Assembly (NCBI GenBank): GCA_003313425.1
Contig: NHZP01000018.1
Coordinates: 186,001 to 250,000 of the forward strand
Direction: 5' to 3'
Source of the DNA: Pseudopyrenochaeta lycopersici
Lineage: Eukaryota; Ascomycota; Dothideomycetes; Pleosporales; Pseudopyrenochaetaceae
DNA: 64,000 nt
In this document: positions 48,050-58,736 of the stretch, in pieces
Position numbering within the stretch: the stretch's first letter is position 1
How the letters are laid out: every line of letters starts with the position of its first letter
Notes under the pieces: generated by a model
Databases searched by the model: none
The model's input: only the letters and a program-made list of their open reading frames with translations
What the model was told of the DNA's origin: nothing
Position numbers and translations under genes: made by a program

Positions 48050-48610
48050 GGCGGCAGAGGGGCTGGTGATGGATCGGAACGGGTGATGGTAAGCTGCCCG
48101 CAGGATGAGCGCAGCTGCACGGGATGAGATGGAAATGCAGCGGATTGGGAGAGTGACGTGCGTGCGATGCGCGGTGGGCTCAGTGGTGATGCTACAGTGA
48201 ACATTTTCTCCAGGAGCGTGATGACATAATACACGCTAAACCACGACACCGACAATCTTCCGTTATCAATCGGCATAGGAACATGACGCCTGTCGAGACT
48301 TGCTTTTTGGGCCATTGACTGCGAAACCCCTCAAGGCCCTACCTCAAAGTCCTCAGACTGACTTGCGACACGATCCACTTTGTCGAGGACGCTGCATTTG
48401 CCCGTCACAGATTGCCGCACCTTGTTCGCTGACAGCGCTCGGCAAACGTTTATCTCGACCGGGTCCCTGGTTCTGGCAGAGTGACGCCTCTTAAGCCGCT
48501 CAAACGCACCTCGAGTTTATTTTCGCTTTCCTCAGTCCTTCTTATTTCTTCTCGTGTCCTATCTTTCTCGTCATCTCTTCTTCCTACAGAACTTTCACTA
48601 ATTCGCAACA
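48050..48610. promoter_or_regulatory. Divergent promoter region between TOM40 and PFK2 genes
   Basis: 561 bp between two divergent start codons. The part near 48500-48600 is a pyrimidine-rich leader (ttttcgctttcctcagtcct and similar) typical of fungal promoters. An open frame read back into this stretch from the PFK2 gene is leader and intron, not protein. Confidence 0.5.
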
Positions 48611-50390
48611 ATGAGCGACACGCTACTGTAAGTGCACCAACCCCACATCAGCACCCGCGTGAAAGCCCCGGCATTGTATCCTCCTGGTGGCTCAACAACT
48701 ACAGAAATGCAGAAATATACGCAAACTCCCCGCGCGTCCGGCGGCGGTCGAGCACGTATGTCGATGCAATCCATGATCTTCCCGAGAAAGAGAATATGGC
48801 CCCGGCCCAACTGTACAGTACCGAATCTGGCCGACTCTTCCATTCCGGACGTATTGTGATTGCAACTGTTGGCCTGCCAGCTCGAGGCAAAACTCACACT
48901 TCCGTTGCCGTAGCTCGTTACTTGCGATGGCTTGGTGTCAAGACGCACGTGTTTCATCTCGGCGACTACAGACGTGCAACCCTCGGTCCAGAGCAAGATG
49001 TTCCGGATGACTACTTTTTCTTGAACGCTTCACCCCAGTCTGTCTTATTGAGAAACAAGATCCTGAAAAAGTGTCGTGATGATATCTACCACTTCCTTGA
49101 GAACGACAAAGGCCAGGTGGCTATCTATGATGCGGTCAATGCGATTACCCATGGCCGCAGGCAGTTGGCCAAAGAGTTTGCCAGTAAGGGTATTCAAACA
49201 GTCTTTATAGAGTCGCATTGCACAGATGAACGTATCATCCAGGAAAATGTTCGTCGTGTCAAGATCTCTTCACCAGATTACAAGGGCTGGAAAGATGAGG
49301 ACGCGGTTCAGGATTACTTGGCACGAATCAACTCACGAATACCACATTACGAAACCATGGAAGAGGCTGACCTGCATTGGATCAAGATGATCAATGCTGG
49401 CGAGCGAGTTGTTGTCAACAATTGTGCCTTTGGATATTTGTCCCAACGCATCGTCTTCTACTTGCTCAACTTGCACATCAAATCACGACAGACCTACTTT
49501 GCCCGCGCTGGCACTACTCGAGAAGAAGATTCGTACAAGGCTGATGCAAATCTTTCTCCAGAGGGTCATGATTATGCCAAGAAAATGAGTGAAGTGCTCC
49601 TGAAGTATCGTGAGGAAGAGAAGGAAAAGTTGATTGAATCCGGAGCATTAGATGTTGCGTTGAAGCCTTTAACTATCTGGACCTCAACCCGTCGACGTAC
49701 TGTGCAGACCTCGGAGTATTTAGCTTCAATGGGATATCGAGTGAGGCAACGATCCCAGATGAGCCAAATGAATCCTGGCGTCTGCGAGAAGATGTCAGAA
49801 AAGAAGATCAGGCAGGAGTTTCCAGAGGAAGTGGCAAAGCATGAGGCGGATCCCTATCACCACCGCTATCCCCGAGCAGAGGTGAGCAGCAAGATGTGTT
49901 TTCATTAAGATTGCACTAACAGTGTGCCAGTCATATCACGACCTGGCGGTACGCATGGAGCCGATCATCCTTGAGCTTGAGCGCGAAGAAAATGATTTAC
50001 TTATCATTGCACACGAGTCCGTCCTACGCGTGCTGTATGGATATTTGATGGCATGTAATGCCGCCGATATTCCAAAGCTCGAGTTTCCTCGCGATGAGAT
50101 TATCGAGGTGAGCAGGCCCGTCATGTATACCTCTTTCATCACATTAATATTCTCCGTAGATCATCCCTTCATCCTACAATAATGTCGCAAAACGCATCAA
50201 GATCCCTGACCTCCCTGAATTTATGGTCCCTGGTAGCCCAGAGGATATTAAGATTCCTGTTCCACCAAGTGGTGCCGTGAGTCCTTTCTCCGGCATTGGT
50301 ACACCACAAGCTGCATCAGGCACGGCAACTCCGCAACACGTTCCTCAGCTCTTGAACGTGAAGAAGACTCACATTAACCCGTTTGAGTGA
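48611..50390 (+). CDS. 6-phosphofructo-2-kinase, bisphosphatase site inactive
   Basis: Four exons, 48611-48627, 48705-49881, 49931-50107 and 50160-50390; 533 residues. It makes fructose 2,6-bisphosphate, the cytosolic activator of glycolysis and inhibitor of gluconeogenesis. The kinase part has the P-loop GLPARGKT (62-69), the segment VFHLGDYRR and the Walker-B-like VAIYDAVNAITHGRR. The bisphosphatase half is present (TSTRRRTVQTSEYL, AHESVLRVLYGYL), but the catalytic RHG triplet reads R273-A274-G275. Without the phosphohistidine, phosphatase activity should be lost, as in yeast Pfk26-type kinase-only enzymes. The C-terminal tail (GTPQAASGTATPQ) is Ser/Thr/Pro-rich and probably phosphorylated. 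The 17-nt first exon puts the start ahead of an intron that is itself open. Confidence 0.92.
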
Positions 50391-51009: not shown

Positions 51010-51889
51010 TCAGCCACTCTTCCATCCCGACCCAAAGTTCATCCCACTCACCGATCCATTGATAACGCCAGATTGGAATCCCTGATTGTTTGCACCAAAA
51101 GTTACGTTGGTGGTCCCCATTTGAGCTTTGCGTGTGGCCTCTGCCACTGCTTCTGCGCTGGCCTTTTGGCGTAGCTCCTCGAGTAGTTTCCGTGAACAGT
51201 CAAGTGCAAGTCGTTCCTCTTGCAATTGCCTGAGAGCTCTCGCAGCATACTCATCGGGTTCATCAGTGCCGTCGCTGCTCAGCTGGTCCAGGTCATCTTC
51301 AATCACTGTGAGTTGCCTGTTCGTTGAAGTTATGGCATCTGAGACCGTCGATTCCGTGCTACGTCTCCAATCTTCACTGATTTGGGTGTGCCGGAGGCTA
51401 CTGTATCTGGATGCTATTAGTATTTGTATGTCAAAGTAGATGTGAAATAGCGCCTTACAGGGTTGCTAGGCTAATTGCAGAATTAAGAGATATCTTGCAA
51501 CTCTGGAGCTGCGCAGACATGGCTTTTATCTGACGATCCTTGAAGAATCCCACTGTAGTCTTATCCCTCAACGATAGAATATTATCCTTCGAATGCCTCG
51601 TCCATTTCTGGAGGTCGGTTCGAAACTCTTCACAAGCCTTGTCACAGAGCTGAATTGACGTTTTGGCTTGGTCTGCCACGATCTGACCTAGGAGTTGCCA
51701 CTCGCGTTCCCCAACCCGTTCGAGAGCATCACGGACTCCTAGAGTCGACGTAATGTCTTCATCAAGTGTTCGAACTGTGCGCGGAGCGTCGATGATATTG
51801 CGTATATCGTCTAGGAGCAGACGCGCACCGTGCAAAGCGGGTACTGTCACGCTAACTGCACTAGCGGCAACGCTAAAGGGGTCTGGCAT
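51010..51889 (-). CDS. hellp: HELLP-like cell-death effector: HeLo-like domain plus C-terminal PP amyloid motif
   Basis: Two exons, 51889-51459 and 51406-51010; 275 residues. The N-terminal domain (about 1-150) begins MPDPFSVAASAVSVTVPALH and continues ALHGARLLLDDIRNI, EEFRTDLQKWTRHSKDN and LQSCKISLNSAISLATLYSS. This is the fungal HeLo-like (HELL / PigL_N-type) helical bundle, related to the pore-forming domain of HET-S and the 4HB domain of MLKL. A charged coiled segment follows (about 185-238). The Gly/Asn-rich C-terminus carries N251-QGFQSGVIN-G261, an exact N-x-G-x-Q-x-G-x-x-x-G pseudo-palindromic motif, then a 14-residue Gly/Ser tail. In the known HELLP system, templated amyloid folding of this motif activates the HELL domain at membranes. 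The partner NLR is divergent, 238 bp away. The first ATG of the frame (51889) is the start. Confidence 0.85.
51055..51087 (-). other. PP (pseudo-palindromic) amyloid signalling motif in the HELL-domain protein
   Basis: Encodes NQGFQSGVING, residues 251-261, matching N-x-G-x-Q-x-G-x-x-x-G. It shares 9 of 11 residues with the motif at the N-terminus of the neighbouring NLR. The FQSG/VING core recalls the animal RHIM core (hydrophobic-Q-x-G). Confidence 0.85.
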
Positions 51890-52127
51890 CGCGAGATTTC
51901 GATCAAATGTTGAAGTAGCAAAAGGCGCAGAGGACTTGTCAGAAGAATTGAGAAAAGTGGATTGATACAAGGCTAAGTTGGAATGGAAGTACGAGGATGA
52001 TCTGGCAAGGAACGAGTGGCTGAGCTACTGGCGCAGGTTCTACAAGGTCTTGGGCGTCAGCTTTCAGCCTTGCAACATAAAGGTTTGCCTCATCTCCAGG
52101 ACGCTGATCCGGTAAAGCGTATGCCGA
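51890..52127. promoter_or_regulatory. Bidirectional promoter of the HELL-domain / NLR pair
   Basis: Only 238 bp separate the two divergent start codons, so both genes probably share control elements. A short out-of-frame ATG at 52121 opens a nine-codon frame (52121-52147) that overlaps the NLR start codon and ends in TAA. It could lower NLR translation if it lies in the leader. No specific factor site assigned. Confidence 0.6.
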
Positions 52128-54003
52128 ATGTATTTCCAATCCGGTAATATGGGTTTCCAGGCGGGTGTCATCAATGGCCCAGTGCATCCGACAGTTCATA
52201 ACGCTGAAAGTGAGTCGCATGGAACAAGGCGATCTCATAAGCGCTTAGCATTGCTAATGATCTATAGGACATTCAGAGGTGCCTCTCAGCACATATTGTG
52301 ATATACCGTTTCGGCGCGATCCTGTCTTTGTCAATCGACTCTCTCTACTTGAAGATATCAAGAAAAAATGCTACCATCCAGCATCACGGGTAGCGCTGGT
52401 TGGCTTGGGCGGCGTTGGGTATGCGGGCACAAACTTCATCTAGTCTTCATACCTAACATCAGCAAGGAAGTCACAGCTTGCCATCGAGCATTGTTATCGG
52501 ACCTTAGATCAGTCACTTAAGACATGCGTATTCTGGGTGCCGGCCGGCAATCCCGAAGACATAGAACAAAAATTCAAGGACATCGCCAAAAGCCTTCATC
52601 TTCATAGGAGAGGCCAGTCACAAACATGTGTTTTCCAGCTTGTTGGCAACTGGCTGCGGAATTTCAAGAATGGGAAGTGGATTTTGGTCCTTGATAATCT
52701 CAACTCAGCTGCAGTGCCGATGGCTTCATCGAGCTCCACCTCAGATAGCGGGTCCACGAATGCGTTTGGCCTCCTTCTCAAATACCTACCCCAGAGTAGT
52801 AATGGGTCACTTTTGATTACTACTCGATATAAGCATATCGCTTCAGATTTCGTCGAAGATAGCGATATCATAATCGTTGAGCCGATGTCAATTGATGAGG
52901 GGCAGCAACTTCTGTTTCATAAGCTAGCGAAGCACGTCGATGCAGATGACATTATGGAGCTAGCATTGCATCTCGAATGTTTCCCTCTTGCACTCGTTCA
53001 AGTAGCAGCTTACATCAACAGAAGAATGCCGGGGTTTCCGGTACCGAAATATCTGAGTGAACTTAAGCAAAGCCAAGCGAAATTGATGGATCTGATGGGT
53101 CTCGATAGAAAAGACCAACGGCGAGATCCAGAGGGCAGCAATGCTATTTTATTGGTTTGGAAAGAATCTTTTGAGCAATTACGACGTAACCACCCTCCAG
53201 CGGTGGGCCTCCTCGCACTTGCATGTGTCTCGGATCCCCAATGCACATGCCGCTTTGAGGACGACCTATTGATACTAAGGGATTATTGTATAGCCCTCCC
53301 AAATATGAACTTCAACACTTTGTCAATGAACCGACTTGTTGCAATTGCCGCGCAGGAGTGGTTCCGAGAAAATGGACAATTAGCCCAGTGGGAAAACTTT
53401 TCAATTACAAGCACCTATCTGTCGTTCGGCCTTTCACCAATGGAGCTTGGTGTCAACGAAGATGCTTTGAGGTATTTATCAGGTACAGAGATGTTTAGGA
53501 AAGCACTTCGGTTCATCGGAGATCAATTTCCGCCCGATGGAAATCATTCTCCAGCTATAGAGTACAGGATTTGTAACATCCTGATAACTTTCGCTCTAGC
53601 ACATCTGGCACTGGGGCAGCTCATGGATGTGAAAGAACTCTCGACACGGGCGCGACAGGGCCAAGCCCGGATACTGGGGGAGCGCATTCTAGCGAAGCTT
53701 GAGTCTGGAATTTTTGTCTGTAGGTGTAACGTAGTTGGCAAGAGGAGTGAAGCTTCCAGGAGAACGCTATTGCAACTCGCATGTATCCAACTACGGCTGA
53801 GAAGCGGAGATACCCCGACTTCAGATTCACCTGCTCGTCCAATGCGGATACTGTGCTGCGAAGAACGACACCCTAGAATCGATGCCGTCTCCGATCAAAT
53901 ATTTGATGAGCAAGAGCTGGCACGAGGTACAACACTAGAGGATGCTATACGGCTATACCGCAACACCATTTTCCGACCAGCTGGCGAAGGGACGTCGAAG
54001 TAG
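52128..54003 (+). CDS. pnt1: PNT1-like NLR: N-terminal PP motif, NB-ARC, short degenerate TPR
   Basis: Three exons, 52128-52209, 52268-52418 and 52467-54003, giving 589 residues with the frame closed. Residues 7-17 (NMGFQAGVING) form an exact PP motif right at the N-terminus. Then comes the pre-NB segment DIPFRRDPVFVNRLSLLEDI, the P-loop GLGGVGKS (73-80, split by intron 2), Walker B WILVLDNL (149-156), LLITTR (193-198) and the GLPLA-type CFPLAL. A winged-helix-like part follows (FEDDLLILRDYCIALPNM, MNRLVAIAAQEWF). The expected TPR sensor array is reduced to one TPR-like hairpin (about ELSTRARQGQARILGERIL) and a divergent tail. In the known system such NLRs sense a ligand, oligomerise and seed amyloid folding of the HELL-domain partner. 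The start ATG is the first after an in-frame TAA (52113-52115). Confidence 0.85.
52146..52178 (+). other. PP amyloid signalling motif at the NLR N-terminus
   Basis: Encodes NMGFQAGVING (residues 7-17), matching N-x-G-x-Q-x-G-x-x-x-G. Five of the nine codons for residues shared with the partner motif differ synonymously (GGT/GGA, CAG/CAA, GGT/GGC, GTC/GTT, GGC/GGA). That points to conservation at the protein level rather than a fresh DNA copy. Confidence 0.85.
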
Positions 54004-55405: not shown

Positions 55406-57988
55406 TCAATCATCCTTTACGCTAGCACTCACATAACCGTCATCCACGTCGGCTTCCACCTTTTTCACAGCAAGGCCGACGAGCGTTCTGGTCGCATCCA
55501 GGCAGTTTTCGACAATCTTTCCCCTCACCTTGTCGCCCAGTCCGCTTCGTTTACCTGTCTCATGACCGACCCACATGCGCAGCGAGTGCGCAATGCGCTC
55601 AAGGCCGGAGTTTGTCTCAGTTTGAAGCGAAGACTCTTGCATGAAACGTGTGAGAATCTTGTAGCCAGCAACAAAGCTGAGAAGTGTGGTGGTGATCTCG
55701 GGGAGATGTGTATTATTAACAACGAATATGGCGCGTTCTCGTGCTTGTGGAGTCGACGATTCGATCAGCGAGAGGCACTTGGCCAATGTGAGAGCTTTGC
55801 GGACGTCTGTTGCAACGAAGCCATTGCCTACTAGATTAATGAAGCCTGCGTCGGCAGGTTGTGGGGTAGAAGGTAGTGCAGTAAGCGCTTTGGTGATACG
55901 CGAGCTGCGGTCGTCGTCAAGCACGACAGCTTGTGCAACCAGGGCGCGAAGTTGAGCCTGCGAGTTTGGCGGGGCAGATCGAACGGCGAGGTCCAGGTCA
56001 GCGATGACACTTTCCTTGCGCGAGCTGTTCTTTGTCGCCAGGGTGCTTGCAAGGCCCTTTGTGAGTATGAGACTTGAATACCAAGCAGCAAGTGCATCCA
56101 GAGGGGAGCAGATGGCGAAATCTTCGACAACACCGTCCATGGAAGTATCACAGACCGTCTTCTCGGCGCTTGGCCTGTTCCAAGCAAGATTGTAGGCACG
56201 CTGCACGATGGCCGGAACCAGGACCTCATCGCATTCCCTCTCGATGAGGGCAGCCAGATGCTCCGGTAACGGTTCTGGTTTATTGCCTTGCTTTGACGCC
56301 ATGTTTGAAGCGATCCGATGCTCGCTCCGTGCCATGTTCCAGTAGCTGCGGGCCAACTTGGCACTCAAATCGTCCATCATCCACCATGAACCATGACCAG
56401 TGTTGGCAATCTCCCAAAGAAGTACTCTGATGTGCAATGCCTTGAGCATGAGTCGAACTGGAGTGTCGGGTAGAGTGCCCGACGCCATCAACGTCAGAAC
56501 CAAACGACTCTTGCTGATCTCTGCGTCGCCTCCCGTAAGTTGCGCGTCAAGCGCAATTTCCCAAGCCTTGACACGGGCAGCTTCTTGTTCTTTGGTCAGA
56601 CCAGTGAGGTATGCGTATCCTGGCCAGCCGATAACCTTTCGCGTGCTGAGCTTGAGAGTCTTCAAGCCCAAAGCGGCAACCTCAAGGATAAAGTTGTGTT
56701 GAGGAACCCATACAGTCTGAATGGCAGTGAGCCATGCCTTCCTGCGTACTTCGACTGGCGACGCCAGTGATGGTGCAGGTGACAGAAGAAACGGCGGTGG
56801 ACCTTTCCTCTTTGGCTTGGCTTTGAAATCGAGCAGCGGCGCAATAAGATAAAAGAAGGCACAAAAGACGAGGAGAAGTTTGGCGAGTGGGATTTGAGCG
56901 GTCGAGCCAGCGAAGGAAGCTCGTGGTGCAAGAATGCTAGCAAGACGGACGGGTGGAGCAAACAAACCACGATCAGCGGACGCTTCTTGTGACTGCTCGC
57001 GCTCGACGAGTCCCTCCAGGATCATGAGGCCGGCGAGGGAACCAACCATTAGCTTGCCCATCATTGCGCCGCTGCGTCGTGCGTTGACCATCGGCGGGCC
57101 AACGGGTGGACGGGTATTGTTCGGGTACTGTGGGTACGCATGTGCGTAGTGTTGTTGTGGTGGTAGCCCACGCTGGAGGGCGGCGATGTTTTCGGGGACG
57201 GGGATCATTCCTTGCGGCGGTATGTTCATTGGCATGCCGTGTGTTGTCGCAAATGGATCCTCTTGGTACCTTGAGCCATCAGGAGTGCCGACATGAGTGC
57301 CATGAAGCGTCATTGGGCCTGATATGGCCATCTTCTCATAGCTGTCAATGCGTCCCTTGAGAGTGTCGAGCTCATCTTGGATCCGCTTGTTGCGTTTCTC
57401 AAGATGCCGGATGTACTCGGTCGCCTTGGATAGGACAGTGGCTTTGTTCAGCTTATGTGCTGGAGTAAGTCCCTCGAGATCTTCGGGGTCATCGTCCTCT
57501 TCCGTTCCGTTGGGACGAGACATGACGCGAAGACTGGGTACACCTAGAGAGAGTGTGGAATTAGCAAATGTGCTTGACGATACTGAGGTGAAGCGACGTA
57601 CTGTCACGAAGAGCTGCAATTTTGTCATTAAGGTTTGTTCGATAGCGCTTCTCGATCATGTTGTGAGCGGTTTTCTTGGGTGGCTGTCCCTTCTCTCGCT
57701 TGCCGGACGGCGCTGACTCGGTGTCCTCATCGTCTGAAGGCGTCTTCCTCTTTTTGGAGGTTGTGACAGGCTCTGGAGATGAATGCGAAGACGACGAACT
57801 GGCTCGGCCGTTGTTGAGCGACCCGGGACTGTGGTGAAGACTAGGTGTTGAGACAGGGACAGAGGGAGCGACAAAGCCTTGCTGCTCGTATCTCGACGGC
57901 GAGAAGAGATTATTGTCTGTGAGTTGCTGCTGTTGCTGCTGTTGCTGTTGTTGTTGTTGTTGTGGCTGTGGCTGCGGCTGCGGCGGCG

Positions 57989-58046
<58 letters not shown>

Positions 58047-58736
58047 TTGCTGCGGCTGCTGTTGTGGCTGCCACATGGGCGGCGAGTAAAAGCCATTCTG
58101 CTGGGGAACGTCTCCGGGAAGCGGTGAGCTCAGCGTGTTGCCGTTGAAGTCGAATGCCGGGGGCACGTCGGCGGGCTGTCCAAAGGAAAATGGAACACCA
58201 CCTGCGTGGGAATACATTGGGGCGGTGGTGGGTACAGTGGTGGATTGCAGCGACTGCGATTGCTGATGGCGGGTAAAGAGAGGTGGTTGCTGTTGGTCGG
58301 GCTTGAGATAGGATGCAGGCCCCTGGAGGTTCGCGGGCTTGGAAACGACCGTCTGGGAGGGCTGAGACGCGGCAGCGGGGTCGTAGTGCATCCACTCGTT
58401 CCAGTTTGACATGTCGTCGGCGGGCGCAGCAAGCGTCATGTCGTCGGCGGCGGTAGTGAGCCATGGGGTGCGCATGCTGCTGAAGGGGAAGTCACTGGAC
58501 ATGACGGGGTCCTCCATCTTGCTCGTGTTTCTGGCCGGGTCTTGGGCCGGCGGGTGGGCGGGCTTGGGGCTCGGGGGCAGTCGAAAGTCGTCGAAGACGC
58601 AATAGGGACCAACCTGGAGCAGCGCGCCCTGTTAGCGATACGAACAAAGAAGGCCGAGTGCTCTGCAGCGGCCACGCACGGCGATTCTCTCCAACTCGAG
58701 CCCGTCGTCGAGGGCGCCATAGGCGTCTGAAGCCAT
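55406..58736 (-). CDS. srbA: SrbA-type sterol regulatory element-binding protein (SREBP)
   Basis: Three exons, 58736-58680, 58613-57602 and 57543-55406, close on 1068 residues. It is an ER membrane-bound bHLH transcription factor controlling ergosterol synthesis and hypoxia adaptation; its N-terminal part is released by proteolysis. A glutamine-rich tract lies at about 205-255. The basic region HNMIEKRYRTNLNDKIAALR carries the Tyr that marks SREBPs, followed by SVPSLR and helix 2 with leucine zipper (LNKATVLSKATEYIRHLEKR). Two hydrophobic segments follow: GKLMVGSLAGLMILEGLV (about 520-540) and LAKLLLVFCAFFYLIAPLLD (about 575-595). The C-terminal half matches DUF2014 (RRKAWLTAIQTVWVPQHNFI, GHGSWWMMDDLSAKLARSYW). 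The first exon (MASDAYGALDDGLELERIA) is inferred from GT-AG and frame. A start at 58517 is the fallback. Confidence 0.92.
57924..58071 (-). repeat. CAG/CAA tract encoding polyglutamine in the SREBP
   Basis: Two nearly pure runs of CAA/CAG codons on the coding strand, separated by a short Pro-Gln stretch. The second is a regular alternation of CAG and CAA. The frames in other phases here (Leu, Ala or Ser/Asn runs) are by-products of the repeat. Confidence 0.95.

Follow-up and report, generated by a model that had tools for sequence, protein, structure and literature searches.

The PP motif of fungal amyloid signalling has been defined as FxGx(x)NxGLQLxGxNxGxL (PMC3321046), its core has been given as NxGxQxGxN (PMC9815663), and the Pfam family Ses_B (PF17046) is its model (PMC8086366). 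The PP motifs of Podospora and Chaetomium cross-seed, PP motifs and human RIP homotypic interaction motifs (RHIMs) do so partially, and the C-terminal region of HELLP forms a prion (PMC7885112). The PP-bearing NOD-like receptors (NLRs) numbered 296, of which 37 had a neighbouring motif (PMC9815663, Table 1), and the control of one effector by many NLRs was raised there by the authors as a speculation (section 45); the idea of a shared executor is therefore already published, in speculative form. We analysed a 64,000-nucleotide stretch of DNA (the window; G000:C18:186001-250000 of a 62.7-Mb fungal assembly, in which C-numbers denote contigs of this same genome) and found at 51010-54003 two divergent genes, one for a HELL-domain protein and one for an NLR, with an ATG-to-ATG spacing of 238 bp and with matching short motifs in their products. 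The pair is real and of a known kind; its motif is a variant that scores below the standard annotation cut-off. Judging from sequence, we consider it likely that the two genes encode an amyloid signalosome of the HELLP/PNT1 type.

The HELL gene extends on the minus strand from an ATG at 51889 to a stop at 51010, with a single GT..AG intron and a product of 275 amino acids (aa), and the NLR gene extends on the plus strand from an ATG at 52128 to a stop at 54003, with two introns and a product of 589 aa (Table 1). The introns were backed by homologs, as P0001 (HELL) and P0070 (NLR) aligned without break across the junctions, and removal of the second NLR intron restored the P-loop GLGGVGKS; the gene models and the 238-bp figure of an earlier, sequence-only reading of this DNA were thus correct. 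The N-terminus of the HELL protein, which that reading had called HeLo-like, did match PF17111 (PigL_N) in a Pfam profile search (E=1.4e-21; 77.3 bits relative to a cut-off of 27.2), as expected for a HELLP-type protein; the PF17111 domain is named HeLo-like in PMC9815663. The closest relative of the HELL protein was P0001 (74% identity; Pyrenochaeta sp. MPI-SDFR-AT-0127), and P0215, a 271-aa protein from a Podospora pseudocomata cluster which, judged by genus and length alone, is probably HELLP, was 41% identical to it over 272 columns, end to end. The exon-1 region was predicted to form a helix bundle, with a mean pLDDT (predicted local distance difference test score) of 85.1. With the full-length model (pLDDT 68.6) Foldseek gave no match at E<=0.001 and no MLKL among the rows shown, and a HELL-family profile run against PDB sequences gave three matches, at E 0.33 and above, with MLKL not among them. 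The NLR has the PNT1-type order of an N-terminal motif followed by an NB-ARC domain with its P-loop (PF00931, E=1.9e-7; 31.1 bits relative to a Pfam cut-off of 23.5), and its closest relative, P0070, was 47% identical over the whole query and came from the same Pyrenochaeta strain.

The matching motifs are NQGFQSGVING at the C-terminus of the HELL protein and NMGFQAGVING at the N-terminus of the NLR. Both fit N-x-G-x-Q-x-G-x-x-x-G exactly, as the sequence-only reading had stated; the published core NxGxQxGxN, however, is absent from both, the ninth residue being I and the tenth N. The Asn thus lies at +5 from the Gln and not at +4, and the residue after the Gln is small. When both motifs were searched against the PP model they reached at most 15 bits, relative to a Ses_B cut-off of 23.2. 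We concluded that the shared motif is not the published PP motif with which it had been equated, exact PP identity being ruled out by the core, but belongs to a shifted PP subclass with N at +5. We define this +5 subclass as F-x3-N-x-G-[FL]-Q-[AGST]-G-x-[IV]-N-G at the N-terminus of an NLR and the C-terminus of a HELL protein, and both window genes fit it. The C-terminus of the HELL protein reads TNVTFGANNQGFQSGVINGSVSGMNFGSGWKSG; the motif is C-terminal, as described earlier, but does not end the protein, since SVSGMNFGSGWKSG comes after V-I-N-G. Two other identities were rejected. The core tetrad of RHIMs reads (V/I)-Q-(V/I/L/C)-G (PMC9444067), and the window motifs have FQSG and FQAG; a motif profile run against PDB sequences gave three matches at E 1.3 and above, none of them a RHIM. 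For a sigma or HET-s (HRAM) motif, no such Pfam family was matched at E<=10, and the sigma submotifs GxGxQFN and GGTQNINT (PMC3321046) were absent by eye.

The shared motif is more than chance. The back-translated pattern G-F-Q-x-G-x-I-N-G had five matches in the genome and its reversed control had none, and the five were the two window motifs and three gene starts just upstream of other NB-ARC matches. A wider pattern added a fourth NLR start, on C52, and one match at C19:157862 that had no gene-like frame around it and was taken as chance; a further, loose pattern gave 14 matches relative to 16 in controls, which is background and adds no evidence. Among HELL homologs the C-terminal motif was conserved across many genera. 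A C-terminal motif of the PP family was present in 36 of 69 by the loose rule TFG..N.G, which lets in +4 and mutated cores as well and misses at least two clear carriers, P0011 and P0017; many of the remaining homologs are short fragments. In a 33-row alignment of the window protein with 32 chosen homologs, mean pairwise identity was 0.62 in the motif and 0.60 in the HELL domain, and 0.45 in the linker between them. In some homologs (P0007, P0013, and P0020) the GFQxG core is mutated to GFAA or GFAG between conserved flanks, which may reflect a third class of motif or a loss of templating.

The pair was found again elsewhere. P0001 and P0070, the top matches of the two genes, lie in the same strain of Pyrenochaeta, which we take to be a genus of the Pleosporales, on contigs of equal size (748,530). 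Equal-sized contigs also joined HELL and NLR matches in Bimuria, Tricladium, Pyrenophora seminiperda, Ophiobolus, Lepidopterella, and Paraphaeosphaeria; all these co-locations are deduced from equal contig sizes, and the HELL annotation of the Ophiobolus pairing (P0040) is without the motif. A private co-adaptation of adjacent motifs was considered and rejected, as the adjacent motif ranked 34, 36, 1, and 25 of 37 in four species, first only in Tricladium, with the Lepidopterella and Paraphaeosphaeria pairs left out of the ranking.

Most strict-core PP motifs sampled had either the +4 or the +5 register, on receptors and executors alike. Among the 120 listed NLRs, N stood at +5 alone in 33 and at +4 alone in 28, at both in 3, and at neither in 10, and 46 were without a strict core; for 153 HELL-family proteins the corresponding numbers were 46, 18, 3, 10, and 76. 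The register was coupled to the residue at +1. In the NLRs this residue was small in 30 of the 33 with N at +5 and in none of the 28 with N at +4, all of which had an aliphatic residue there; in the HELL family it was small in 39/46 and 1/18, respectively, and aliphatic in 17/18 of the +4 proteins. The coupling was therefore the same on two unrelated proteins. Precomputed Pfam annotation marked the motif in 0 of 36 variant and 14 of 32 canonical NLRs, by a rule that left 52 of the 120 in neither class, 4 of those annotated. The Pfam PP model overlooks part of the family, and Ses_B-based surveys may therefore under-count amyloid-linked NLRs. Within the texts viewed, logos and supplements lying outside this coverage, we found no description of the register split, and a search for GFQAG with amyloid was empty; published motif models may already contain the split implicitly.

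Both registers occur in the genome that holds the window. Motifs with N at +4, above the Ses_B cut-off, were found at C15:246.6-247.8k in a HeLo executor (C15:246.6k) and an NLR, and at C96:20.9-22.5k in a HeLo executor flanked by two NLRs. Motifs with N at +5 were found in five NLRs, those of C18 (the window), C15:298.9k, C26, C49, and C52, and in the HELL protein of C18; a HELL protein of C76 has a motif near the +5 type. When the HELL tail was searched against the genome, the matches were C18, C76, a stop-bearing relic on C14, and the C15:298.9k NLR. BLOSUM scores of the motif cores were 35-54 for +5 NLRs with HELL and 22-28 with HeLo, and 44-55 for +4 NLRs with HeLo and 24-35 with HELL, that is, 35-55 within class and 22-35 across class. 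When scored with the HELL motif of C18, the window NLR gave 53 and the NLRs of C15:298.9k, C26, C49, and C52 gave 54, 52, 54, and 42, respectively. The motif had been read earlier as the link to the neighbouring partner; since the HELL motif is matched equally well by the neighbour and by three NLRs located on other contigs, it marks a channel and not a private couple. The NLRs of C15:298.9k and C26 have 9-15 tetratricopeptide repeat (TPR) stretches (TPR_10, TPR_12). For none of the four non-window +5 NLRs was a clear-motif executor seen within the about 1.7-5.0 kb fetched to either side; three of ten flanking frames matched no family, and the others gave a gamma-tubulin complex domain, DUF6536, Sir2, UBA, and arrestin, together with sub-cut-off matches to an F-box-like domain and a membrane segment. 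That four of five +5 NLRs lack a clearly matching executor in their flanks suggests a channel of several receptors and few executors.

The ancestry of the receptors was examined with a quick NB-ARC tree of 43 of 44 chosen rows, P0142 being missing. The +5 class was clustered but was not one clade; there were 7 label changes relative to a shuffled mean of 14.6, and at least 5 changes were forced by starred branches. A single origin of the +5 NLRs was rejected, the constraint of 21 variant rows to one clade giving p-AU 2.7e-57; this group was set by motif, although an earlier 132-tip FastTree had already been seen. In that 132-tip tree four rows labelled "none" had been relabelled variant-like under a wider rule before changes were counted. 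P0079 (+5) was nested deep among +4 receptors and P0072 (+5) grouped with P0075 and P0094 (+4), and therefore the receptor motif changed or was swapped at least twice. The window NLR and P0070 formed a well-supported pair on a long branch (1.4), with an uncertain wider position.

As the +5 motif is common to five NLRs and the HELL protein and is distinct from the +4 motif of HeLo, we propose that HELL could serve several dispersed NLRs as their shared executor and be insulated from the +4 channel. By analogy with the Podospora and Chaetomium systems, from which oligomerisation, templating, and membrane attack are carried over, the NB-ARC receptor would sense a cue and oligomerise, and its N-terminal motif would fold into an amyloid seed; the seed would template the C-terminal motif of the HELL executor, and the N-terminal HELL helix bundle, so released, would attack the plasma membrane, leading to death of the cell or hyphal segment. 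More generally, we suggest, tentatively and as a minority possibility, that ascomycete PP signalling uses at least two registers as separate addresses in one cell, one with N at +4 and an aliphatic +1, the other with N at +5, a small +1, and an aliphatic +4, the latter serving here as a shared bus. If so, the +5 bus would join five or more NLRs, belonging to two or more NB-ARC lineages, to one or two HELL executors, most +5 NLRs would be without a clear neighbouring executor, the +4 address would run to HeLo executors, and receptors would switch channel by altering or swapping a short protein start. Two close registers on different executors in one genome, differing at a few positions, form a natural test of how amyloid signals are kept separate. 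The dispersed +5 NLRs put a concrete case beside the idea, published as a speculation, of several NLRs for one effector (PMC9815663, section 45), and the receptor-to-executor ratio of the +5 channel gives a testable network hypothesis.

Several observations weigh against this interpretation. Individually the window motifs gave 15 bits (NLR) and 11.4 or 14.9 bits (HELL, in the protein and in a genome scan) with Ses_B, below its cut-off. In the window NLR, Pfam detected no TPR at E<=10, so that the TPR array of a PNT1-type receptor was not seen; P0070 carries TPR_12 (E=8.5e-20), and its last 255 aa are absent from the window NLR, with no trace near the gene. The earlier description of a complete receptor-executor pair is for these reasons doubtful, and completeness is unproven because the NLR has no recognisable TPRs. 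The HELL protein of C76 lacks N at +5, where T replaces it. Within-class and cross-class motif-core scores touch at 35, and the Fisher tests on register coupling used related sequences, which inflates their significance and overstates independence. Only about 1.7-5.0 kb to either side of the four orphan NLRs was examined, and the C49 NLR is preceded, about 3.3 kb upstream, by a HET-domain protein (PF06985, E=1.1e-24; C49:225935-227695, L057) that could act locally as a different kind of executor; it ends in SGYQAGINDGHNGITIRII, with the weak PP-like GYQAGINDG but without the flanking F and N. This ending may be chance, since 69 kb of other loci contained three cases of GxQxG no more than 30 residues from the end of a frame. 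Finally, adjacent motifs were not specially matched in the four species ranked, so private pairing was not seen.

The missing repeats raise the alternative that HELL works but its neighbour NLR is degenerate, its sensor repeats lost, with activation occurring in trans from TPR-bearing +5 NLRs elsewhere. Besides the absent TPRs and the lack of any trace of the 255 aa downstream, this would fit the TPR stretches of the C15:298.9k and C26 NLRs, whose motifs, with that of C49, equal the neighbour's match to HELL (that of C52 less so), and C76 offers a parallel, since its HELL protein keeps a related motif and the adjoining NLR start shows none. We nevertheless consider it somewhat unlikely, as the reading frame of the window NLR is intact for all 589 aa and its P-loop complete, its lineage accompanies HELL in Pyrenochaeta, and the repeat number of PNT1 is known to vary (PMC7885112). 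The register split, for its part, could be neutral drift within a single PP channel, in which +5 and +4 motifs cross-seed freely and all executors answer all PP-type NLRs. The known cross-seeding between Podospora and Chaetomium, and in part with human RHIMs (PMC7885112), would predict this, and intermediates exist with N at both positions (3/120 NLRs and 3/153 HELL-family proteins) or at neither (10 and 10). The bimodal, internally correlated residues on receptor and executor and the lower cross-class scores within the genome itself argue the other way, and we regard a single channel as unlikely.

A common peptide need not be an amyloid, and the motif profile matched no solved RHIM structure, so a non-amyloid docking tag or conserved remnant was considered; this seems very unlikely, because the whole HELL protein is homologous to the probable HELLP, whose C-terminal region is prion-forming (PMC7885112), and the motif is conserved across many genera. 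That the PF17111 protein is a pigment-cluster protein lying by accident beside an NLR is suggested by the Pfam name PigL_N only and, although no search of the neighbouring window genes was aimed at pigment functions, is extremely unlikely, given the common motif, the recurrence of the pair in Pyrenochaeta, and the HeLo-like naming of the domain (PMC9815663). We favour the HELLP/PNT1-like pair of the sequence-only reading insofar as it is a gene pair with a common PP-family motif, and do not retain its equation of that motif with the published one or its completeness. A common promoter in the 238 bp, as that reading had it, is a possibility, and amyloid templating and cell death are likewise inferred. 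What the sequence itself offers in its favour is the gene pair, the domains, the matching motifs, their conservation, and an apparent kinship to the probable Podospora HELLP.

Table 1. Features of the divergent HELL/NLR locus (window positions)
Feature	Position	Strand	Basis
HELL exon 1 (HeLo-like domain, PF17111)	51459..51889	-	Pfam and homologs
HELL intron, GTAAGG..ATCCAG	51407..51458	-	junction collinear with P0001
HELL exon 2: helical linker, C-terminal motif, stop	51010..51406	-	alignment with homologs
HELL C-terminal PP-like motif core NQGFQSGVINGSV, +5 register	51049..51087	-	motif pattern, Ses_B sub-threshold
Divergent intergenic region, 238 bp	51890..52127	.	gene models
NLR exon 1 with N-terminal motif MYFQSGNMGFQAGVINGPV	52128..52209	+	collinear with P0070
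NLR N-terminal PP-like motif core NMGFQAGVINGPV, +5 register	52146..52184	+	Ses_B 15 bits, E=0.023
NLR intron 1	52210..52267	+	gene model
NLR exon 2: linker, P-loop start	52268..52418	+	gene model
NLR intron 2, within P-loop codons	52419..52466	+	splicing yields GLGGVGKSQLAIE, same in P0070
NLR exon 3: NB-ARC, a short C-terminal region in which no TPR was recognised, stop	52467..54003	+	P0070 31-592 aligned

The neighbours of the pair in the window, at 48433-50390 and 55406-58631, are ordinary-looking genes, which from their translations we take to encode a 6-phosphofructo-2-kinase-like protein and a basic helix-loop-helix (SREBP-like) protein with a long poly-Q. Elsewhere in the genome, the C76 locus (C76:152987-155337; L002, L038) has a HELL paralog, 53% identical over exon 1, beside an NLR whose start showed no motif in any of three frames, and the C96 cluster (C96:20860-22457; L035) contains two canonical-motif receptors for one HeLo executor. 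Two relics of the +5 motif were seen, one with an in-frame stop after decayed TPR sequence (C14:448441-448548; L055) and one in a frame-broken NLR start with no receptor after it in the stretch read (C3:2301774-2301857; L056), which suggests that channel members have been born and lost. At C46:289220-300313 (L004, L005) two HELL-domain genes with a two-fold C-terminal repeat lie beside NLR sequence; by eye we took the tail repeats to be HET-s/HRAM-like and the NLR to be of NACHT type. The L004 tail had no Pfam match, and one frame nearby (L004, near 2428-2550) has a VGxFxGN-like stretch in common with the HELL tail; these genes are possibly a HELLF-type channel parallel to PP. A HELL-domain gene at C25:306109-309468 (L007) has a repeated FGxTxxG-type tail, with a NACHT-like frame, recognised by eye, on the opposite strand, a possible further amyloid-linked pair.

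Among known systems, HELLP/PNT1 of Podospora anserina (PMC7885112) is like the window pair in being a two-gene cluster with a HELL domain and a C-terminal PP-type motif, and PNT1, like the window NLR, combines an N-terminal motif with NB-ARC. The two differ in that P0215 of Podospora has NSGQQVGVNSG, with N at +4, whereas the window HELL protein has its N at +5, and in that PNT1 of wild isolates has 4-10 TPRs (PMC7885112) and the window NLR none recognised. CgPNT1, CgHELLP, and CgSBP of Chaetomium globosum (PMC7885112, PMC5485727) likewise join an NLR to a HELL executor through a common PP-family motif; unlike that cluster, the window pair has a shifted motif, and no third motif-bearing gene was found beside it. 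The PP family at large (NLR07/NLR39, PMC9815663; Ses_B, PMC8086366) has the same N-x-G-x-Q-x-G-x-x-x-G frame at NLR N-termini and executor C-termini, but the window motifs have neither a hydrophobic +1 residue nor the pseudopalindromic +4 N, and score below the Ses_B cut-off. The RHIM of RIPK1/RIPK3 shares the G-x-Q-x-G centre, and the predicted helix bundle of the executor may be comparable with that of MLKL; the F-Q-S/A-G of the window differs from the (V/I)-Q-(V/I/L/C)-G tetrad and is not a member (PMC9444067). What the present analysis adds is a concrete case of a proposed shared executor, together with the split of PP-type motifs into two registers.

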